64,000 bases of DNA, taken from Lentibacter algarum. Its GTDB lineage: Bacteria > Pseudomonadota > Alphaproteobacteria > Rhodobacterales > Rhodobacteraceae. How positions within the stretch are numbered: position 1 is the stretch's first letter; each line of letters starts with the position of its first letter. The translations under genes and the position numbers were made by a program. The notes under the pieces are model-generated. The model was given only the letters and a program-made list of their open reading frames with translations. It ran no database searches and was not told where the DNA came from. The stretch spans positions 1,240,001 through 1,304,000 of the forward strand of contig NZ_CP158687.1 in NCBI RefSeq assembly GCF_040580765.1, written 5' to 3'. Shown one piece after another: positions 769-49,646 of this stretch.

Positions 769-1845
769 TTATTCCACGCTCAGACCGGTGAAAGGACGCA
801 CAGTTTCGCCCTCTCGCAACATCTGTATGCCTGCACCGACCACCAGACTTGTCGGGTCAAGGCCGGTCACGGTGATCGAGGTTCCATTGGAAGACTCAAC
901 TTCGACAGAGGCCCAATTGACGGTTCCGTTCTCGCCGTCCGTATTGGGGATATAGACCATTACCTGTGCACCGTCCTCACCGATGGACACAGCAGATGGT
1001 GAGAGTTCAATTGCTTTTCCGTCGGTTGGCGCAAGCCGCGCCGTTACGGTCATTGACGCACCGGGAATGATCGCGGCGGGGACTTGATTTGATGGCAACG
1101 CCAGCGTCACTCGATAGCTTTGGCCAATATTTTGCGTCTCTGCATTGAATTCGCGAAGGACCAAGGGCACCTCACCCTTAAACAACGGCGATGTGCCGAC
1201 AAAGCTGATTGCGTCGACATCCGACAGGCTTTGAAACAACCGCTCTGGCACATCTATTTCAACGCGCACCTCGGACATATCATGCAGACGTACGATGGGC
1301 TGACCAGGCGTCACATTGGCAAAATTTGGTGTAAGACGCGATGCGACGAGAGCACGGAAAGGGGCGGCCAGCGTGGCATCTGCAAGCGCATCCGTGGCCT
1401 CGCGCAATGAAACAGCTGCCAGATCGCGGACAGTTTCCGCGTTTTCCGCCTGCGTCGCCGACGCCGCATTGGATTGAACGAGGGTTTGCGCGCGCGTCAG
1501 ATCGCGGTTTGCCTGCGCTAGTTGAAGTGTTGCACGTTCCACCGCGCGCTCAAAAGGTGCCAGATCCATCGCGGCGATTTGCACGCCTTGATCCAGAAAT
1601 TGCCCTTCTTGTGCATCAAACATAGTCAGTCGCCCACCGACCTCGAACGATAGATCAACCGTTTCACGCGCTGCGACCTGACCGAAGAAAACCCGTTCAA
1701 GTGCTGCGGCCTCTCCACCGGCTTGGATCAGTTTGACGGCGCGGATGGGGGCAACATCGCCGGACGGTGTCAGAACATCAGTATCTTGGGCAAAGCTGGG
1801 GGCGGCCAGTGCCATGACTGCTGCGATATGGAAGATCAGTTTCAT
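769..1845 (-). CDS. RND efflux periplasmic adaptor (HlyD/membrane fusion protein)
   Basis: Periplasmic adaptor of 358 aa that would link the RND transporter to an outer-membrane channel. Residues 1-19 are a Sec signal peptide (cleavage expected after SFA). There is no lipobox cysteine, so it is soluble or membrane-associated rather than lipidated. A barrel-sandwich start (VDLSFEVGGRLTMFDAQEGQ) is followed by a coiled-coil hairpin rich in Ala, Gln and Arg (about 85-145), the second lipoyl half, and beta-barrel domains. It is the first gene of the leftward operon. The upstream region holds two dyads that probably bind the divergent TetR regulator. Confidence 0.88.
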   Translation of the reverse strand: MKLIFHIAAVMALAAPSFAQDTDVLTPSGDVAPIRAVKLIQAGGEAAALERVFFGQVAARETVDLSFEVGGRLTMFDAQEGQFLDQGVQIAAMDLAPFERAVERATLQLAQANRDLTRAQTLVQSNAASATQAENAETVRDLAAVSLREATDALADATLAAPFRALVASRLTPNFANVTPGQPIVRLHDMSEVRVEIDVPERLFQSLSDVDAISFVGTSPLFKGEVPLVLREFNAETQNIGQSYRVTLALPSNQVPAAIIPGASMTVTARLAPTDGKAIELSPSAVSIGEDGAQVMVYIPNTDGENGTVNWASVEVESSNGTSITVTGLDPTSLVVGAGIQMLREGETVRPFTGLSVE

Positions 1846-3460: not shown

Positions 3461-3861
3461 CAGGCATCACCCTGTTTTGCTTCGTCAAAGGCGACCTTCG
3501 CCTGCTCCGCCCAAGGCAGTGCTGCACAATTGCTGAGGTTGATTTCGGTTATGGCGATGGCGTCGCGCCCGCAGGTCAGCCGCTTCAGCACCTCAGGCGC
3601 CAGGTAGGCTAGCCGTAGCTGCCTGCTGACATGACGCTCTGCGAGGTTCACAGCGATTGCCAGATCACGAACCGTGCCGAACTCACCTGCCTCCATGCGC
3701 CGCCGCCAACCCCATGCCCTGCCGATGGCCCGCAGGATGTGCGGGTCTTGGGTCTGGTCCGCACTGGGCAGGTAATCGGCGGGCGGCAGGATTTTGGGGC
3801 GCCCGTTCTTTTTACGCAGCTTGAGGGGAACGAATACCTGGATGGTATCGGGCGCGGTCAT
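3460..3861 (-). CDS. Recombinase-associated protein with a predicted HTH
   Basis: Basic protein of 133 aa whose start overlaps the stop of the serine recombinase gene (TAATG), so it is translationally coupled to it. Residues about 62-95 (TVRDLAIAVNLAERHVSRQL) look like a helix-turn-helix of the ParB/KorB type, suggesting DNA binding. It is the last gene of the integration operon. A role as accessory or directionality factor is possible but inferred only from position. Confidence 0.65.
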   Translation of the reverse strand: MTAPDTIQVFVPLKLRKKNGRPKILPPADYLPSADQTQDPHILRAIGRAWGWRRRMEAGEFGTVRDLAIAVNLAERHVSRQLRLAYLAPEVLKRLTCGRDAIAITEINLSNCAALPWAEQAKVAFDEAKQGDA

Positions 3862-5183
3862 TATTCCGCGGCCTCAAATTTGCGTGGGGTGATCATCTCC
3901 CGCATGACGCCTGCGATACCATCAGTGCGCATGTCGATGACGAGTCCTTCAGCGGTCACTGTAACGCGCCTAACAAGAAGTTGAATGATGCGGGCCTGCT
4001 CGCCTGGAAAAAGCTGATCCCAAAGCTTGGTGAAGTGCTGGAGTGCCTCGATGGCCTCTGCCTCAGGGATATCCATACGATCCAGCACGGCTATGACCTG
4101 TGCTGTGGTTTCGGGGGTTTGCAGAACGCGGCGGATCTCGGTAATGACGGCGGCCTCGGCGGTATCGGCCGGCAAACGTCTCGGGATACCATCGTTAGGC
4201 GTCTCACGGTTCTTCAGAAGGTCCATCGATACATAATAACGATACCGACGCGTGCCCTTCTTGGTGCTGGATGGGGTCATTGCGGCCCCTGTGGCACTGA
4301 ACAGTAACCCCTTCAGAAGTGCAGGCGTTTGCGTTCGGCTATTGTTCGCCCGCTTGCGGGGGCTTTCACTCATGATGTCATGCACCTGATCCCAAAGCCG
4401 AGGGTTGATGATGGCATCATGCTCACCGGGATAGGATTTGCCTTTATGGACAGCCTCGCCGCGATAGACGCGGTTGTTGAGCAGGCGGTAGAGGTAGCCC
4501 TTATCGACCAGCGTGCCTTGCTTGTTGCGGAACCCCTCGCTGCGCAACTCGCGGGCCAGAACAGTCGCGGATCCTATTTCCACAAAACGTTCAAACACCA
4601 TGCAGACCTTGGCAGCTTCCTCTTCGTTTACCACCAACTTACGGTCGACGACATCATAACCGAGGGGCACATAGCCGCCCATCCACATACCCTTCATGCG
4701 GGAGGCCTTCACCTTGTCGCGAATACGCTCTGCGGTGACCTCGCGCTCGAACTGTGCGAAGCTGAGTAGGATATTCAGCGTCAAGCGGCCCATGGATGTG
4801 GTTGTGTTGAACGATTGCGTTACGGAGACAAAGGTCACGCCGTTGCGATCGAACACCTCGACCAGTTTGGAAAAGTCCATAAGCGAGCGGCTGAGACGGT
4901 CGATTTTGTAAACGACAACGACGTCGACCAACCCGTCCTCGATATCAACAAGCAGTTGCTGCAGGGCAGGGCGCTCCAGTGTTCCGCCAGAGATGCCGCC
5001 ATCGTCATATTGATCGCGCACCAAGACCCAGCCTTCGGAGCGTTGGCTCGCGATATAGGCCTCGCAGGCCTCCCGCTGGGCGTGGAGCGAGTTGAACTCC
5101 TGCTCGAGGCCTTCCTCACTCGATTTGCGGGTGTAGATGGCGCAACGCAGGCGGCGGGTGGGTTTTGTCGGAACGTTCGTCAT
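3861..5183 (-). CDS. Large serine recombinase (phage integrase)
   Basis: Site-specific recombinase of 440 aa expected to integrate and excise the prophage through a 5'-phosphoserine DNA intermediate. The N-terminal resolvase domain holds the nucleophile in YTRKSS (Ser21 or Ser22) and the conserved arginines in KIDRLSRS. The recombinase domain follows (from about 160, including GGYVPLGYDV and the NNRVYRGEAVHKGK region). At about 290-315, where related recombinases have a zinc ribbon, no CxxC pairs are present (LLKGLLFSATGAAMTPSSTK). The C-terminus contains a helical region. It overlaps the DUF2924 gene by 4 bp. It is the only integrase in the prophage. Confidence 0.9.
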   Translation of the reverse strand: MTNVPTKPTRRLRCAIYTRKSSEEGLEQEFNSLHAQREACEAYIASQRSEGWVLVRDQYDDGGISGGTLERPALQQLLVDIEDGLVDVVVVYKIDRLSRSLMDFSKLVEVFDRNGVTFVSVTQSFNTTTSMGRLTLNILLSFAQFEREVTAERIRDKVKASRMKGMWMGGYVPLGYDVVDRKLVVNEEEAAKVCMVFERFVEIGSATVLARELRSEGFRNKQGTLVDKGYLYRLLNNRVYRGEAVHKGKSYPGEHDAIINPRLWDQVHDIMSESPRKRANNSRTQTPALLKGLLFSATGAAMTPSSTKKGTRRYRYYVSMDLLKNRETPNDGIPRRLPADTAEAAVITEIRRVLQTPETTAQVIAVLDRMDIPEAEAIEALQHFTKLWDQLFPGEQARIIQLLVRRVTVTAEGLVIDMRTDGIAGVMREMITPRKFEAAE

Positions 5184-42878: not shown

Positions 42879-43583
42879 ATGGCCAATACACTTCTTCTTA
42901 AACGCACGACTGTCGCAGGCCGTGTGCCCAGTTCAGCGCAACTTGCTGCCGGTGAATTGGCGGTGAATGTGCCCGATGGCAAGCTTTACCTCAAGCGCGT
43001 CTCCGGTGCGGAGACCATAATTGAGCTTGGACAGACAGGGCCGGAGGGCCCAATGGGCCCAGCAGGACCCCAAGGCGCGAGCGGGCCCACAGGACCAAAG
43101 GGAGATACCGGGGCCACTGGGCCCCAAGGCCCCGCTGGGACAGATGGCTCTCCGGACACGGCGGCCCAGGTGCGCGCAAAGCTTATCACCGTCGATGGGG
43201 CTGGCTCAGGGATTGATGCCGACCTTTTAGATGGCAGCCACGCCAGCGCCTTTGCAAAACTCTCAGGCGCGACCTTTTCTGGCACGGTGACGGCGCCAAA
43301 TTTTGTCTCATCCTCCGATGTGAGGCTCAAATCCAACATCGCACCCATTCCCCAGGCACTGGCCAAAGTGAAGGCGCTGACCGGGATTACGTTCACCATG
43401 GCGGGCAATGAGACCCCGCAGATGGGTCTTATTGCGCAGGACGTGCAGAGAGTTGCCCCAGAGGTGGTTGTCGAGGCTGATGGTGTTTTGCGCCTCGCTT
43501 ATGGCAACCTCGTAGGCCTTCTTGTCGAGGCCATCAAGGACCTCGCCCAAGAGGTTGATCAGCTAAAAAGGACTGCGCTGTGA
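42879..43583 (+). CDS. Collagen-like tail fibre with S74 chaperone domain
   Basis: Protein of 234 aa. The start MANTLLLKRTTVAGRVPSSA is related to that of the preceding fibre. A collagen-like segment follows at about 50-88 (TGPEGPMGPAGPQGASGPTG and on), then a shaft (LLDGSHASAFAKLSGATF) and a C-terminal S74 chaperone (FVSSSDVRLKSNIAPIPQAL, ETPQMGLIAQDVQRVAPEVV). The S74 part is closely related to that of the fibre at 38973. Confidence 0.83.
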   Translation: MANTLLLKRTTVAGRVPSSAQLAAGELAVNVPDGKLYLKRVSGAETIIELGQTGPEGPMGPAGPQGASGPTGPKGDTGATGPQGPAGTDGSPDTAAQVRAKLITVDGAGSGIDADLLDGSHASAFAKLSGATFSGTVTAPNFVSSSDVRLKSNIAPIPQALAKVKALTGITFTMAGNETPQMGLIAQDVQRVAPEVVVEADGVLRLAYGNLVGLLVEAIKDLAQEVDQLKRTAL

Positions 43584-44488
43584 TTGAGACGGGACTTCAT
43601 GTCATCCACAATACGGGATCGCGGCTCCATTATGCCGTTGATGTCCAGGACACATATGCAGGGATTGCTGTCTTTGAGCCCTGTGAAGAGGGGTCTGTCA
43701 TGGGCCTTGGGGACGACGCAGTTCTATGGGCAGATATCTTGGCCATGCTTGAAGAGCCGTTTGACATGGCGAACTCTGCGGGATTTGTCGATATGCGCGG
43801 CAATGGCCTCTTTGTCCCTGACATTCCAGGGTTAACGCATGGGGCTATATACCGTGGCAGGTCTTACGTGTTCCTTGATGGAATGATCGGCCACGATGAA
43901 ATCACTGATTATGCTTTGATCGATATCATGACGAATGAGGCAGCCTATCCACTGCCTTGGCGCAATCGCTTTGCGCAATCGGCACGCGAGAAGGTGGATT
44001 ATTCCTTTCGACATCGGGCGCGAACGCAGTGCTCCAACGCGCTTGTTATTTTTATGCCTATCGCGGGGGCTCTCACAACCGCCCGTGTCGAGCTTCTTTG
44101 TGATCAAGACCCCATCCTTTTAAACGGCACGACGATTACAGGCAGGATTGATGACGCGACAATTCCAAATGACGGGCAGTGGTTCAAACAGTTTTATTTC
44201 CACGTAAAGACACCGCTTGAGACTGTCACGGTTGCCGCCGGCGCGCGTGTTGACGTGCCAATAGCGCTGCGTTGGAACAAGGACGACATGCCATGCGCTC
44301 ATGCGTTGAGGCTCAAACTCGAAAGTGATGCGGGATATCTGCCAAAGCGCCGGTTAATCACCGATGAAAACGGGTTGGGCAGTTTTACGATCGAGGCGCT
44401 AGGGTTGAACTCAGGGGATCATATTGCTGTTAAAATCAACACCGAGCATTACACGGCCATCGGTAAAATCATTTTGGAGGTTGTGTGA
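43580..44488 (+). CDS. Beta-rich protein, first gene of the modification cassette
   Basis: Protein of 302 aa starting with GTG (AAGGA 8 nt upstream), coupled to the fibre gene stop. No family recognised. The first half contains GLGDDAVLWADILAMLEEPF and PLPWRNRFAQSAREKVDYSF; the C-terminal 100 residues look like an Ig-like or beta-sandwich domain (DENGLGSFTIEALGLNSGDH, ending IGKIILEVV). It may be a virion-attached domain or a scaffold for the modifying enzymes. It overlaps the next gene by 1 bp. Confidence 0.6.
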   Translation: MIETGLHVIHNTGSRLHYAVDVQDTYAGIAVFEPCEEGSVMGLGDDAVLWADILAMLEEPFDMANSAGFVDMRGNGLFVPDIPGLTHGAIYRGRSYVFLDGMIGHDEITDYALIDIMTNEAAYPLPWRNRFAQSAREKVDYSFRHRARTQCSNALVIFMPIAGALTTARVELLCDQDPILLNGTTITGRIDDATIPNDGQWFKQFYFHVKTPLETVTVAAGARVDVPIALRWNKDDMPCAHALRLKLESDAGYLPKRRLITDENGLGSFTIEALGLNSGDHIAVKINTEHYTAIGKIILEVV

Positions 44489-45228
44489 TGGACCTTCAAA
44501 CAACGACGGAAATCCAGCTGATTTATCCTGCTTTTGTTATGCACAAGCACTGGGAGATGCCAGAGGGCTTTAACGATCGCCTGCATGCGCTGGCCGCCGA
44601 GGACGCTGAAGCAAATCGCATCCAAGACGCGGGCGACGGGAGAAACGTTGGTGATCAAACCAATCACCTCGGGCATCTGCGCCATAACTTCCTGATGGAT
44701 CGACGCGACCCCGTGATTGCAGTGCTGGCGCAGATGGTTGCAGCAGCGGTGCGAGAATATTTGCAGATTGCTTATGGTTATGATCACAAGGGCGAGATTG
44801 CCATGATGTCGGATACCTTCTGGCAGCGTCGCTCAAAGCGCGAACACATTGGGATTAACGCGCATACGCATATCCAGACCGATATTGTCTGCACCTATTA
44901 TCCGCGCGTGGTATTGGACACTGATTGTCCTCAGACCTCGCTACATCGTGGGGCGGTGCGCTTTTACGATCCTGCAAATGTTGGCAAACGGCTTTGGCCT
45001 TGCAACAATCCAGGTACCTACGTGGGCGGCTGGTACGCCGTTGAGCCCAAAACCGGCTCGATGCTGGTCTTTGAAGGGCATGTGCCCCATGACAGCACCT
45101 ATTTTGAGGGCGAGGAGCGGATGTGCATTCCGGTTCTTTGTGCGCTCGAGCTTCCCAATTCCCACTGCAAGGCAGGTCTAGCCGAGATTTTAGCCCATCA
45201 AGCGCAAGGAGACACAGATGGCTTATAA
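44488..45228 (+). CDS. 2OG-Fe(II) oxygenase-like protein 1
   Basis: Protein of 246 aa from ATG 44488 (GGAGG upstream). The second half follows the double-stranded beta-helix pattern of TIGR02466/PF13759-type dioxygenases: NAHTHIQTDIVCTYYPRVV (metal-binding His with a nearby Asp), GAVRFYDP, then KTGSMLVFEGHVPHDSTYFE with the distal His and a basic residue a few positions on (EERMCIPV). It would hydroxylate or otherwise oxidise a peptide using 2-oxoglutarate. The product target is presumably in the same operon. Confidence 0.72.
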   Translation: MDLQTTTEIQLIYPAFVMHKHWEMPEGFNDRLHALAAEDAEANRIQDAGDGRNVGDQTNHLGHLRHNFLMDRRDPVIAVLAQMVAAAVREYLQIAYGYDHKGEIAMMSDTFWQRRSKREHIGINAHTHIQTDIVCTYYPRVVLDTDCPQTSLHRGAVRFYDPANVGKRLWPCNNPGTYVGGWYAVEPKTGSMLVFEGHVPHDSTYFEGEERMCIPVLCALELPNSHCKAGLAEILAHQAQGDTDGL

Positions 45229-45553
45229 AGTTGGGTCAACCATCGTGATTAACGACAGCGGCTATGTGGATTGGTCACGGATTTCCAATAAGCCAGCGAT
45301 TGGGGCTGGCGACATTACCTCCGTTGGGATCTCCAATGGGACGCCGGCAAGCGGTGTGAAATTTGTAAATAACCAATACACGCTCAACTCACTCTCTGTG
45401 TTTGCGGCCAATAGAAGTACAACGGGCAACTGTAATTGCACGGCAAATTGCTATGTTGAGAGCCTCTCGGGAGGAGGGACATCGGGTGCAGTCACAATTA
45501 CTGCGAACCGGAAGTATTTTTACTGTAATTGCAACTGTAACTGTCGGTGCTGA
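45218..45553 (+). CDS. Cys-Asn-rich fibre-like peptide, candidate RiPP precursor
   Basis: Protein of 111 aa with AAGGAG before the ATG. The start (MAYKVGSTIVINDSGYVDWS) looks like a phage tail-fibre N-terminus. The rest is small-residue rich, with two Cys-Asn tracts: NCNCTANC at 71-78 (Cys72, 74, 78) and YFYCNCNCNCRC at 100-111 (Cys103, 105, 107, 109, 111, the last residue). Eight cysteines, none elsewhere. It sits between two oxygenases and before a radical SAM enzyme, overlapping the first oxygenase by 11 bp, which is the layout expected of a modified substrate. Confidence 0.7.
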   Translation: MAYKVGSTIVINDSGYVDWSRISNKPAIGAGDITSVGISNGTPASGVKFVNNQYTLNSLSVFAANRSTTGNCNCTANCYVESLSGGGTSGAVTITANRKYFYCNCNCNCRC

Positions 45554-45555
45554 GG

Positions 45556-46188
45556 ATGGATGTTCGCAGCACGACGCTTGAGCTCTGGCCCGCAAGGATC
45601 AGCTTTTTTGAAACCCCGCCGGATTGGGAAGTGAACCGGCGCCTGGGAGATGAGGCCATTGCGCGGGCAGGGGGTGTGGATGAGAAGACACCCGGCAGCG
45701 CCGCAAAGCGGCGGGTTCGGGGTATTTTGGACGACAGCACCGAAGGCCAGGCGCTCAAAGCGCATCTCTTTGGCTGTGCACGCTTAGTTCTTGGAAACTG
45801 GTCGATATATCTCGATCCCAACCTTTGTGAAAACCGCGCCCTCGTGATTATGCCCGGCGGCTTTATCTCAACCCACAAAGATAGCCGTGAGGGGGATTTG
45901 ACATGCGTGCATTTTTTAACCGGTAGCGGCGCAGGGCAGCCCATTAACAGTGTTGGGATGCCTCGCTTTGTGATTGAAGACCCATCGCGCTACTTTGATG
46001 AGGGGCGCTTGCCCTTCGAGAGCCGTCATGGCTTCTCAGTCAACCCAAGGCCAGGGCTGTCGGTGTTCTTTCCTTCCCATATTCCCCACAACCAGCATCC
46101 CTACACAGGGCGCAGGCCCCATGTGCAGGTCGTGGCGAACTTCCGCCTAAACCTGCCGACTGCAATCGAAGAAAGGCTTTTTGACTGA
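45556..46188 (+). CDS. 2OG-Fe(II) oxygenase-like protein 2
   Basis: Protein of about 210 aa. The ATG at 45556 lies 2 bp after the precursor stop; a GTG at 45547 would add three residues. Reinitiation is likely because the ribosome site is poor. Metal motif His-x-Asp is visible in ISTHKDSREGDLTCVHFL, and the distal His and Arg in FFPSHIPHNQHPYTGRRPHV. It is related in plan to oxygenase 1 but not a close copy. Its place directly after the Cys-Asn peptide argues for that substrate. Confidence 0.7.
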   Translation: MDVRSTTLELWPARISFFETPPDWEVNRRLGDEAIARAGGVDEKTPGSAAKRRVRGILDDSTEGQALKAHLFGCARLVLGNWSIYLDPNLCENRALVIMPGGFISTHKDSREGDLTCVHFLTGSGAGQPINSVGMPRFVIEDPSRYFDEGRLPFESRHGFSVNPRPGLSVFFPSHIPHNQHPYTGRRPHVQVVANFRLNLPTAIEERLFD

Positions 46189-47423
46189 TGTGGTTTGATT
46201 TAACCTTAGAGGCACGCGATGGCAGTCGCCATCATATGCGCTACAATTCGCACACCTCCGAATGTGAAGGCTTGCCGCTTCCGGTGGAGCCGGGGGTATT
46301 TGAGCCGGTTGAGCGCGTGTCAAAGTCTGCGCCGCTTGGAAAATCACGTGCGCCCCGCGTTCTCAAAATCCAACTTGGGCTATCGTGTAACTACGCCTGC
46401 AGCTACTGTAATCAAGCTGTCCAGATTGGTGATGCGACCGTTTCCAAATTAGCAGACGTTGCGCAGTTTCTGACCCAGCTTGATGGATGGATCGCACAAG
46501 CCCCGGAACAGATTGAGCTTTGGGGCGGTGAGCCTTTTCTCTACTGGGCGAAGATCAAACGGTTAATCCCCGCGCTCGCGGAGCGGTTTCCGGAGGTTGT
46601 GTTCTCGATCATCACGAATGGCTCGCTCCTCGACCGCGAAAAGCTCGACTTCATCGAACAATACGACATTGCCATCGGGATCAGCCATGACGGGCCGGGG
46701 CAACACTTGCGCGGACCTGATCCGCTAGATGATCCTCACAAGCGGCGCTGGATTGAAACCCTCTTGGCCGAGCGCTCGGAAAAGACCAGCTTTAACGCAG
46801 TGCTGACGCGAGAGTATCACGATCTGCGCGCCCTTAAGGCTTGGTTTACTGAGAAGGTCGGGCCGGATGTGTTTGTCGGGCTCGAAGGTGTTGTAAATGT
46901 CTATGACGCAGCGACCGCAATCGGGACAGGGCGGTTCGAGCCCGCGGAACTGAATAGCCTGACGCGGTCGATCTTCGAGGCGCTGGCGGAGGACCCGAAT
47001 GCGTTTGGCCTAGGTGAGCGTGTCGACGAGTTCTATGCATCGATCCAGCGCCGCCGGCCCATCGAAGCCCTCGGTCAAAAATGCGGAATGGACAGCCCAG
47101 ACGCCATCGCCGTCGATCTGCGCGGGAACGTCATGACCTGCCAGAACACCGGGGCAAAGGGGGCCCACAAGATTGGGCATGTTGCCGACTTTGAAGCGAT
47201 CGCGCTTGATACCGCGACGCATTTTGCGTTTCGGGACGAGTGTATGGCCTGTCCCGTTGTCCAGCTCTGCAAGGGCTCCTGCATGTTCCTCGAAGGGGAC
47301 TTCTTCAAGCAGAGCTGCGCCAACGAGTTTGCGTTTAATATGGGGATCTTGATGGCGGCTGTCTGGCATTTGACGGGGATGGTTGTGATTGGGGTGGAGG
47401 GCTCCGGCTCACCGTTCTCGTGA
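46188..47423 (+). CDS. Radical SAM enzyme with SPASM domain
   Basis: Protein of 411 aa. The radical SAM cluster motif is CNYACSYC (Cys67, 71, 74) in QLGLSCNYACSYCNQ; IELWGGEPFLYW has the SAM-binding GGEP. The C-terminal SPASM region carries CGMDSPDAI, VMTCQNTGAKG, then CMACPVVQLCKGSC and a last Cys in KQSCANEF, enough for auxiliary [4Fe-4S] clusters. The first 55 residues are an extra domain, possibly a peptide-recognition element. SPASM enzymes form thioether or C-C crosslinks on peptides; the Cys-Asn peptide two genes upstream is the obvious substrate. Last intact phage gene. Confidence 0.88.
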   Translation: MWFDLTLEARDGSRHHMRYNSHTSECEGLPLPVEPGVFEPVERVSKSAPLGKSRAPRVLKIQLGLSCNYACSYCNQAVQIGDATVSKLADVAQFLTQLDGWIAQAPEQIELWGGEPFLYWAKIKRLIPALAERFPEVVFSIITNGSLLDREKLDFIEQYDIAIGISHDGPGQHLRGPDPLDDPHKRRWIETLLAERSEKTSFNAVLTREYHDLRALKAWFTEKVGPDVFVGLEGVVNVYDAATAIGTGRFEPAELNSLTRSIFEALAEDPNAFGLGERVDEFYASIQRRRPIEALGQKCGMDSPDAIAVDLRGNVMTCQNTGAKGAHKIGHVADFEAIALDTATHFAFRDECMACPVVQLCKGSCMFLEGDFFKQSCANEFAFNMGILMAAVWHLTGMVVIGVEGSGSPFS

Positions 47424-47641
47424 TCGCGGCGAGCTGGTTGACTGGCTGCGCGACGCCGGGTTTTAAAGCGAACGGTGTGTAAGCGTATCCGCCGGTCGCG
47501 GAATACAGCAGGGAGTTTTAGGCACTTGCGGTCGAAGAATTGGCGTTACTTCAGGAAGAGTTAACCGTCATCAAGATAATGAGCGATTATGCTGTTTTGT
47601 GGCAGCAGGCATTTTCATGCAGTGGCTCTTTCCAGAGGTAA
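47396..47641 (+). pseudogene. Broken phage lipoprotein gene (Rz1-like/lysis-associated)
   Basis: One frame reads LTVLVIAASWLTGCATPGFK (lipoprotein signal and lipobox LTGC), then GV-stop-AYPPVAEYSREF-stop-ALAVEELALLQEELTV and MSDYAVLWQQA. This matches the pattern of small lipoproteins near phage lysis genes in Rhodobacteraceae. TAA at 47468-47470 and TAG at 47519-47521 interrupt it, and no start codon is visible upstream. The terminal stop lies just beyond the putative attR core. Confidence 0.6.
47624..47636 (+). repeat. Candidate right attachment core (attR)
   Basis: GGCTCTTTCCAGA matches 3399-3411. It overlaps the last codons of the lipoprotein pseudogene, at the end of phage-like sequence; host-type genes resume at 47791. 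Confidence 0.55.
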
Positions 47642-47790
47642 CCTGCTTTCGTTGGAGCCCCCAGAAGTGACTCATCGCTTGACGATAGAGCGCGGCGTAC
47701 CGACGAATTTAACTTGCAGGGATTTTTTGCCCGCGAAACCGCTTGTGTCTGTTAACCAGACCAGACGAATATCGACAAAGCAGGCCCGAG

Positions 47791-48141
47791 TTACATTGAG
47801 AAATTTGTTGTTTCGCATTTTGAGGTGCTTAGGTTGGCCATTTGCTGGACACTCACCAAACTGTTTTCAATATCAACTTCAAAGCGCAGTGTATCGGCTT
47901 CAGCTATGATGACGTTGTCTATTACGGAGGTGATGCGAAGTCTGCTGTTGCCGTTTGGTTGTGACAGTTGAACGTCAGACCCCAATGTCGCTTTGTTGAT
48001 TATGAGTTCAAAGGGGCCAATCAGCGTATTTGAGCAAAGGAATGTTTTGTGCTCAAACCGTGTGAAGGCGCCACTCCCCAAAATTGTGACCAGCCCAGCA
48101 AACACCAGTGCGCCAATTGCTCCATATAACCATTTTATCAT
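47791..48141 (-). CDS. Hypothetical membrane-anchored protein
   Basis: Protein of 116 aa with one N-terminal membrane helix (LYGAIGALVFAGLVTILGSG) and a beta-rich extracytoplasmic domain (LQLSQPNG-like, with SRLRITSVIDNVIIAEADTL). It overlaps the upstream gene by 4 bp, forming a two-gene operon divergent from flgB. A flagellar link is suggested only by neighbourhood. Not recognised. Confidence 0.6.
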   Translation of the reverse strand: MIKWLYGAIGALVFAGLVTILGSGAFTRFEHKTFLCSNTLIGPFELIINKATLGSDVQLSQPNGNSRLRITSVIDNVIIAEADTLRFEVDIENSLVSVQQMANLSTSKCETTNFSM

Positions 48142-48746
48142 TTTTTATCCTGGTTATCTGAGTTGGCCTCGTCTTTAGACGGGGCCTTTTTGGTGTTTTG
48201 CTTGTCTTTGGCCGTGGCTTTTTTGGCCTCGCTTTCAGCCGCGTCTTCGGTGACGATCTCTGCTTTTTTGGCGTGCACCAGTTTCTGTGCATCCTCTGCA
48301 TTTACTTTAACCACGAAGTCCTTAAAAAAACGCATACCGTTGACAACAGTTTCCTCTAATATTTTGACGGTCTCCCAAGCTTGATCTGCGGAGGCATTGG
48401 CCACATCTGTCGCGTCCGTTTGTTCTTGTGTGGGTGTCTTTGGCACAAAGTTGAGCTTTGAGCGCGCTGGCTCTAGCACCTCAAGACAATCTGCCACTTG
48501 TGGAACGTCATCAGAGGCAATGGTCAACAACCGCTGTCGAATAAGCCAGGTTTGCGCAGCCAATGAACCAAGCCGTGCGGTCTCATCTTTTTCCTTTGTC
48601 AAGTTCAGCCGTAGCGTTTCCAAGGCTTGATCAAGGCTTTCTGACTTTACCGATTTTAAAAACTTCAGCCTGAGACGCTTCATTTGTGCAGATAGAGCAG
48701 CGAGGCCTGAGACTGTTACTTTAGGTGATTGAGAATATTTTGACAT
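48138..48746 (-). CDS. Hypothetical helical protein beside the flagellar operon
   Basis: Protein of 202 aa from ATG 48746 ([20 protein letters not shown]); an upstream ATG at 48776 would add ten residues and cannot be excluded. It is helical with coiled-coil tendency ([20 protein letters not shown]) and ends in a long Lys/Ala/Asp-rich tail ([20 protein letters not shown]). Divergent from flgB. No family recognised. Confidence 0.6.
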
Positions 48747-48842
48747 TTTTTTGTCTCGTGTTGGTTGGTTTGGCATTCAACTTGCAAATATCGCTCCAAG
48801 ATTAGTGATTTTAACAAGAAAATTAAAATAGGCGAGATACAA

Positions 48843-49229
48843 ATGGACGGTATCAGACGGCATTTTGGAATTCATGACGATGCTCTTGCACTGCGCTCAA
48901 AGCGCAATAGCATATTGGCCTCGAACATTGCCAATGCGGCTACCCCACACTTCAAGGCGCGCGATGTTGACTTTGAGGCAACCCTAGCCAAAGCTATGCC
49001 TGACGGTCCACTCGCGACAACAAACTCGCGCCATGTCTCTCGCGGTTCAAACCTGAACGCGGATCGGTTGCAATATCGTGATCCAGTTAATCCATCTCTG
49101 GATGGGAACACCGTCGAGCTTGCTGTTGAGCAGATGCAATTTTCGGAAAACGTTGTGCGATATCAAACATCGCTCACCTTCCTGAACCGTAAGGTATCAG
49201 GGCTCTTGTCTGCGATTAAGGGGGAATAA
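48843..49229 (+). CDS. flgB: Flagellar basal-body rod protein FlgB
   Basis: Proximal rod protein of 128 aa from ATG 48843 ([20 protein letters not shown]). It has the rod motif [20 protein letters not shown] and the C-terminal helix typical of FlgB. First gene of a long, tightly spaced operon; the next gene starts directly after its stop. An upstream in-frame ATG (48765) would overlap the divergent gene and was not used. Confidence 0.9.
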
Positions 49230-49646
49230 ATGTCAGGTATTGAAAACATTTTTGACGTCGCAAGCCGGGCGATGTCGTCGCAGATGACTAGGCTAAACAC
49301 GGTTGCAAGCAACATTGCCAACGCCCGCAGCGTTGCTGGCAGTCGCGAAGAAGCCTATCAGGCGATCAAGCCTTTGTTTGAAACTGAATATGCCAACAAA
49401 GTAAGTGAAAACGGAATATCGACAGTTAATGTGCGGGGTATTGTGACTGCTGACCGTGAGCCAAACAAAGTCTATCAACCCGATCACCCCAAGGCGGATG
49501 AGGAAGGCTATGTGTGGGGCGCTGCCGTCAATATTGAAGAAGAAATGGTGGAGATGCTGGAAGCGTCGCGCCAATACCAAAACAATCTGGAAGTCGTGTC
49601 GACCTTGCGCTCATTAATGATGCGCACAGTCAACATGGGCCGCTAA
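49230..49646 (+). CDS. flgC: Flagellar basal-body rod protein FlgC
   Basis: Proximal rod protein of 138 aa. The N-terminal FLG_bb_rod motif is TRLNTVASNIANARSVAGSR; the C-terminal helix includes EEEMVEMLEASRQYQNNLEV. It starts on the base following the flgB stop codon. Confidence 0.93.
   Translation: MSGIENIFDVASRAMSSQMTRLNTVASNIANARSVAGSREEAYQAIKPLFETEYANKVSENGISTVNVRGIVTADREPNKVYQPDHPKADEEGYVWGAAVNIEEEMVEMLEASRQYQNNLEVVSTLRSLMMRTVNMGR

Follow-up and report, generated by a model that had tools for sequence, protein, structure and literature searches.

Which molecule would a phage modify with a radical S-adenosylmethionine (SAM) enzyme whose gene closes a row of overlapping genes behind a tail fibre? 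The question is raised by a stretch of 64,000 nucleotides from Lentibacter algarum (contig NZ_CP158687.1, positions 1,240,001 to 1,304,000; hereafter the window, whose own coordinates are used throughout), in which a cassette of five open reading frames (ORFs) on the plus strand, 43580-47423, overlaps end to start, each ORF overlapping the preceding gene by 1-11 bases. A sequence-only reading of the window had placed five such genes directly after a fibre with collagen and S74 parts, and we recovered all five ORFs there, on that strand. We found that the enzyme and a fibre protein with a Cys tract tend to come and go together, suggesting that many phages chemically finish their tail-fibre tip, and from comparisons of sequence we put the probability that the cassette is a tail-fibre-tip maturation system at about 0.6.

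The putative substrate in the window is a separate, fibre-tip-like protein of 111 aa (45218-45553), encoded between the genes for two oxygenase-like proteins. Of its eight Cys, six follow Asn, one Tyr and one Arg; a first cluster is at residues 71-78 (NCNCTANC; 45428-45451; numbering from the alignment) and a C-terminal alternating tract at residues 102-111 (YCNCNCNCRC; 45521-45550). Among the matches listed, all 74 relatives of this protein have an alternating Cys tail at the end or one residue short of it, CNCNC or longer in 59 of them, and the cassette observation is for this reason more than chance. In an alignment of 24 rows the tail Cys (105, 107, 109 and 111) are invariant and about 35 residues at either end are conserved, with a middle that varies in length and sequence. 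Conserved ends around a strongly variable middle (45218-45553 and relatives P0121-P0194) are also a feature of host-contact proteins. Judged by eye, the 111-aa protein has an N-terminus like that of a second short tract protein, from locus L045.

Scanning IMG/VR for codons of CNCNCNC gave at least 120 loci, and an ORF rule divided the 120 scanned loci into 59 with the tract near an ORF end and 61 "other" loci, in which it was short, off-frame or otherwise placed. C-terminal Cys-x-Cys tracts, with x mostly Asn, appear to end fibre-like proteins in many phages: phrog_7389 (tail fiber) matched 11 of 40 scanned tract proteins, and other tail PHROGs matched up to 9 of the 40 each, overlap between them not counted. 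Since 41 of 71 non-redundant tract proteins are at least 200 aa long, counted from the first Met, the substrate would often be the C-terminus of a larger protein. These sizes and tail-fibre matches argue against a secreted product, namely a peptide like the ribosomally synthesized and post-translationally modified peptides (RiPPs), or a lysogenic-conversion product, that would not be part of the virion. The small size of the 111-aa protein, its lack of a PHROG match at E<=1e-4, and an HlyD-type secretion gene in the window (769-1845, 42 kb from the cassette) would suit such a product. However, no transporter or protease match was found among the five cassette genes in Pfam, PHROGs or NCBIfam, and three other loci repeat the window's layout: a small ORF of its own carries the tract, close to a fibre that by eye is S74-like. 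A secreted peptide is thus very unlikely, and a virion substrate is the better reading because the tract sits on fibre-like proteins in other phages. To this extent the virion part proposed in the sequence-only reading is supported, with two corrections: Asn is not required and the oxygenases are not fixed.

Residue preferences at the tract were counted in the 71 non-redundant proteins, for Cys outside runs in the last 150 residues. Asn preceded 215 of 298 such Cys (72%, vs 8.7% Asn overall) and followed 48 of 281, so the preferred unit is Asn-Cys rather than Cys-Asn. Within runs (131 proteins), the 621 x residues comprised 357 Asn, 99 Ala, 65 Asp and 40 Lys. The eight Cys noted from the sequence alone were confirmed in number, but their description as Cys-Asn tracts was too narrow, Asn being preferred and not required. 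Asn as a fixed target was rejected on these counts, and the chemistry would have to use a feature common to the residues found at x, e.g. the alpha or beta carbon. Of the 621 x residues, 18 were Gly, Pro, Val, Ile or Thr, whereas these five make up 37% in protein bodies, which hints at a need for a free beta-carbon; we do not lean on this figure, since tracts were chosen by a rule that favours it, requiring N, D, A, K, Q, S or R for no less than half of x. The same tracts may be considered as metal sites. In the needle of T4 gp37, His-x-His binds metal (iron) ions, and alternating Cys facing inward in a trimer could bind metal along its axis, with a minor or activating change made by the radical enzyme. 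The position of the tract at the C-terminus, its strict alternation, which suits an extended strand with one Cys face, and the long (CK)n tracts in two loci are consistent with such a clasp; however, it leaves unexplained both the association of enzyme and tract and the Asn before most Cys outside runs, and we consider it unlikely.

The association of tract and enzyme was examined from three sides, in sets of loci that are related and have some contigs in more than one set. Starting from the tract, 44 of the 59 C-terminal CNCNCNC loci had an enzyme match in the searched stretch (43 over 90 bits), the nearest match lying on the strand of the tract ORF in all 44, and 6 more of the 59 had the enzyme in the whole record. 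For the 61 "other" loci there was one match in the searched stretch (L021, which has an internal tract beside an enzyme) and one more (L018, classed as "other" by rule, which looks like a true case) among 12 searched as whole records. Nine tract loci were without the enzyme even in the whole record. In six of them (L050, L060, L088, L098, L102 and L112) the searched stretch reaches only 164 to 1201 bases past the tract ORF, although the record of L098 is 19 kb long; in the other three (L004, L100 and L106) the ORF has 50-64 aa and is possibly not a gene.

Starting from the enzyme, a profile of 18 sequences (those of the window and of Achromobacter phage JWF, and 16 from tract loci) was used to fetch viral and genome loci, 149 of 158 of which had an enzyme over 200 bits; 117 of the 149 had at least 3.5 kb upstream and were counted. 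The tract was found in 86 of the 117 by a strict rule and in 109 by a relaxed rule, in a test that is partly circular because most of the profile came from enzymes found via the tract. By enzyme clusters it was present in 85/93 (90% identity), 52/58 (70%) and 14/17 (50%), and the relaxed rule applied to the opposite strand gave 10/117 enzyme loci and 3/88 of the fibre loci described below. Regular occurrence of the enzyme without a Cys-rich partner, which the sequence-only reading had named as evidence against its proposal, was not observed. Apart from the circularity, two features of this set weigh against the pairing: eight of the 117 loci (L164, L168, L179, L194, L222, L242, L248 and L257) show no tract, L194 having a looser Cys-rich end and L242 an enzyme truncated where its contig stops; and the tract of L146, counted among the 109, is without Asn-Cys, is doubtful and is perhaps spurious. 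L146, L162 and L180 have their best tract on the downstream side of the enzyme.

The strongest result came from the fibre bodies. Three bodies without their tips (fA, fB and fC) were used as queries and yielded 238 newly fetched loci. A fibre ORF was recognised in 231 loci, of which 88, having a closed ORF and no less than 5 kb of sequence downstream, were tabulated. By the strict rule on the fibre ORF and a downstream enzyme, 61 had both, 23 neither, 3 the enzyme only and 1 the tract only, i.e. tip and enzyme agree in 84 of 88. In each of the four discordant loci the absent partner occurs at another place in the locus: L399, L401 and L405 are the three, mentioned above, with the tract on a separate small ORF, and L477 has the enzyme upstream. 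When these loci were grouped into 40 clusters (80% identity), there were 20 with both, 16 with neither, 3 with the enzyme only and 1 with the tract only (Fisher p 3e-7, before the discordant loci were resolved). When a relaxed tract was accepted at any place on the strand and an enzyme over 90 bits at any place in the locus, 65 of the 88 loci had both, 21 neither and none the enzyme without the tract; the remaining two (L406 and L422), each with a weak tract and no enzyme, do not fit the pairing. Related fibre bodies therefore carry both tip and enzyme or neither, which is the covariation of tract and radical SAM gene that the sequence-only reading had suggested looking for. Without the length rule, the strict counts were 68 both, 11 tract only and 5 neither for fA; 18 both, 8 tract only, 7 enzyme only and 33 neither for fB; and 18 both, 3 tract only and 33 neither for fC. 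Judged on these comparisons, the pairing of tract and enzyme is strong.

Linkage alone cannot prove a substrate, and the absence of a visible tract from 8 of the 117 enzyme loci would suit an enzyme that had another target and merely adjoined the fibre genes. However, its presence and absence track the tip and not the fibre body, and more divergent radical SAM genes also occur in loci with CNCNCNC proteins, so that another target seems highly improbable. The divergent genes, several of them in L013, were observed beside CNCNCNC-type or similar proteins in L007, L013, L113, L081, L091 and L477; in the three loci scanned, the top NCBIfam match was PapB for the two L007 genes, for that of L113 and for two of four in L013. 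They are possibly a second lineage of the tract-enzyme partnership. In addition, two loci (L127:7922-8965 and L230:7489-8976) have a second radical SAM gene, with SPASM over cut-off, just before the main enzyme.

The enzyme (46188-47423, 411 aa) matches the radical SAM model PF04055 (42.4 bits vs a cut-off of 29.5) and the SPASM model TIGR04085 (30.5 vs 27). Its cluster motif CX3CX2C (residues 67-74; 46386-46409) and SPASM Cys set (residues 299-377; 47082-47318), with the spacing C299-X13-G-X4-C318, C352-X2-C-X5-C-X3-C365 and C377, were found in 36/36 aligned members, as were all ten Cys (67, 71, 74, 299, 318, 352, 355, 361, 365 and 377); the SPASM motif in its general form has seven Cys. The CxxxCxxC motif and SPASM Cys set named from the sequence alone were thus well founded. 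The closest NCBIfam family is PapB (NF047865; 6.3e-19) and the best solved-fold match is CteB. By analogy with the anaerobic sulfatase-maturating enzyme (anSME), tip Cys could be oxidized to formylglycine aldehydes able to react with the host surface. However, where anSME has the AuxI stretch CGMNGTCTC, with an extra Cys that is presumably a cluster ligand, the enzyme family has a single conserved Cys and seems to be without a further cluster ligand; furthermore, the enzyme scores 43.5 against the curated anSME cut-off of 349. We consider this oxidation distinctly unlikely. The number and order of the Cys fit the PapB map (AC1 three, AC2 four) in the part of PMC10470005 consulted.

We propose that, during virion assembly, the enzyme would bind a tract Cys via an open site on an auxiliary Fe-S cluster, abstract hydrogen from an adjacent residue, in many cases the Asn that precedes the Cys, and link sulphur to carbon, repeating the step along the tract, so that the distal fibre tip would become stapled and chemically inert. 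The parts of this proposal differ in strength. That the enzyme acts on the tract is very probable, and that the tract is a virion fibre tip is only a little less so; the chemistry and the presence in the virion are both inferred, the virion role being likely, and a thioether cross-link is a product that we favour slightly. Several points count against it. The enzyme misses the curated PapB cut-off by a wide gap (68.4 vs 340), and its best PDB sequence match is TigE, which to our knowledge is not a thioether enzyme. Any ring that linked adjacent residues would be small. The RiPP recognition element (RRE), a winged helix of three strands and three helices according to the part of PMC8326336 consulted, was not seen in the enzyme model, which has only strands and no helix before residue 76. 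The ten Cys of PapB are also common to anSME (PMC10470005, in part), and the argument from Cys consequently rests on the extra Cys of anSME. Lastly, PapB is described as strict for Cys-X3-Asp in the portion of PMC8172795 consulted, so a bond of new geometry would be required for the CxC spacing. A wider proposal is more tentative: a class of phages might have covalently stapled, oxidised tips, in which the enzyme joins each tract Cys to the preceding residue (Asn-Cys and relatives) or across the chains of a trimer, and some phages cut off a Hint or S74 domain to expose the tip. If true, radical chemistry would serve to mature a virion part and would form a cross-link of new geometry.

Domains of these two kinds follow the tract in several loci. 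In the JWF fibre, NCNCDCNCNCSC runs directly into a Hint domain (PF05203, 47.5 vs 32.1); by reading only, the fibre of phage 2-1 reads like that of JWF. L134 has Hint over cut-off (34.5) after a short linker (L134:7088-7918), L167, L175, L176 and L231 have Hint matches below cut-off, and L254 gave no Hint match in the domain scan. L253, L254 and L259 read FPAGT...MADG after the tract (L253 and L259 by reading only). In JWF, 2-1, L175, L231, L254 and L259, the tract ends with the Cys that precedes FPAG; from the usual Hint layout, this Cys would be the first residue of the Hint domain. By eye, the last tract Cys also stands where a Hint domain would begin in L121:6811-8262, L122:6742-8184 and L231:6852-7907. 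The very long (CK)n tracts of L131 (1951-2745) and L133 (1490-2227) are followed by an S74 domain (50.6 and 44.4 vs 22). Domains of both kinds are self-cleaving, and if those found here also cut themselves off, the tract would be left at a new C-terminus.

The remaining three cassette genes are less constant. The oxygenase-like proteins, which would hydroxylate side chains of the same fibre where present, both miss the cut-off (27) of the 2-oxoglutarate (2OG)-Fe(II) oxygenase family PF13759: protein 1 (44485-45228) scores 24.4 bits (phrog_81, 1.1e-8) and has HTH, i.e. HxH replacing HxD/E, and protein 2 (45547-46188) scores 15.1 bits (phrog_81, 7.7e-6) and has HKD with an invariant second His, fitting the HxD/E...H triad. 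The two 2OG-oxygenase assignments are weaker for this, and are supported by relatives: 19 of 28 aligned family members match PF13759 at E<=0.01 (best 7.4e-15), and the metal motif in the 28 rows is HxD/E in 17, HxH in 10 and HxA in 1. In a further cluster, two members that were scanned belong to another 2OG-oxygenase family, PF13640 (34.3 and 26.8 bits vs 27). The ORFs between tract gene and enzyme are dominated by two families, with 83 of the 302-aa family and 76 oxygenase-like (the window's three included); of the 117 enzyme loci, 90 have the former near the enzyme, 76 the latter, 65 both and 16 neither, and in the Achromobacter phages another protein, of 240 aa, occupies this position. Oxygenases and the 302-aa family are thus common, not universal, and the two oxygenases of the sequence-only reading are not a constant component of the cassette. 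The 302-aa protein (43580-44488), which may present the substrate or serve as a fibre chaperone, matched nothing in Pfam, PHROGs or NCBIfam up to E=1. Its predicted model is beta-rich, as had been expected from the sequence (mean predicted local distance difference test score 88.7), with a C-terminal Ig-like domain (residues about 206-302); the N-terminal part, searched as part of the whole model, had no solved-fold match. A role for this protein as an enzyme or RRE found no support, the solved-structure matches covering the Ig-like C-terminus.

Ahead of the cassette, the last fibre gene (42879-43583, plus strand) encodes a collagen-like fibre without a Cys tract, with matches to the collagen model (30.9 bits vs 27.2), a C-terminal S74 chaperone domain (52.2 vs 22) and tail PHROGs. 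Further upstream, phage genes stand in the usual order, for terminase (20765), portal (23482), head protease (24806), tail tube (30047), tape measure (32364) and a J-like tail protein (36427), and a serine recombinase gene lies at 3861-5183 on the other strand. Flagellar genes follow downstream of the cassette, at 49230 and 54802, and the prophage end seems to lie close to them (47424-49230). The cassette probably closes the prophage, because L123, an IMG/VR provirus whose enzyme is almost the same (100% over residues 1-405), extends no further than the stop codon of that enzyme. In promoter and terminator scans, promoter-like signals (3 vs a mean of 3.2) and terminator-like signals (9 vs 7.6, standard deviation 2.7) were at shuffle level.

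The source genome (one contig, 3.28 Mb) has a single enzyme match, and among 198 Rhodobacteraceae genomes the enzyme was found in three, including its own, and the 111-aa protein in its own only; the cassette is sporadic prophage cargo in this family. A genome of the family (G177; L528 and L530) has two frames of 197 aa spanning only the second half of the enzyme, possibly remnants. Among 50,697 phage records searched with three family members, JWF (two records) and 2-1 were the only matches at E<=1e-20; both are isolated Achromobacter phages. Family member L127 was unmatched at that threshold in 72,556 plasmid records. Genome matches span Rhodobacteraceae, other alphaproteobacteria, Burkholderiales, Halomonas and metagenome-assembled genomes labelled otherwise, where binning errors are possible; those in Halomonas (L268) and Polynucleobacter necessarius (L269) are without a single ORF reaching 200 bits.

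In peptide natural products, pairs of a radical SAM/SPASM enzyme and a Cys-rich partner are already known. We found no description of such an enzyme acting on phage fibres in open-licence PubMed Central papers, a scope that takes in few subscription journals and leaves out bioRxiv. A tail-fibre tip as substrate would be a new place for radical chemistry and a new way of building a host-contacting phage part; the tract is directly searchable, and its pairing with the enzyme suggests a role for phrog_1802, which PHROGs calls only "radical SAM domain-containing protein".

Several known systems share some of these features. The His-Xaa-Ser, CXXX-repeat and Cys-every-fifth systems of NCBIfam place radical SAM enzymes beside short-repeat proteins, which are, as far as we know, not phage fibres; their repeats differ, and the window enzyme scores far under their cut-offs. 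T4 gp37, with its His-x-His iron needle, likewise has an alternating residue at a fibre tip, but this is His, without a radical enzyme. The fold and SPASM layout of anSME (PDB 4k36) are like those of the window enzyme, whereas its auxiliary-cluster stretch has extra Cys and its substrate is a sulfatase. The Thermus phage rSAM-DUF483 module is also a radical SAM module of phages and prophages, but has other partner genes, and the terms "tail fiber" and "cysteine" do not occur in the text of PMC11437467. CteB, the maturase of the SCIFF peptide CteA (PDB 5wgg and 5why), differs in its substrate and in having an N-terminal RRE (PMC8172795, in part), which was not seen in the window enzyme model. 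The PapB/PapA ranthipeptide pair (NF047865) is similar in its SPASM enzyme, in the ten cluster Cys with the same order and similar spacing, and in a Cys-bearing substrate encoded next to the enzyme (PMC10470005, in part); however, PapA carries its Cys-X3-Asp motif in a peptide, whereas here the alternating Cys stand at the C-terminus of fibre-like proteins.

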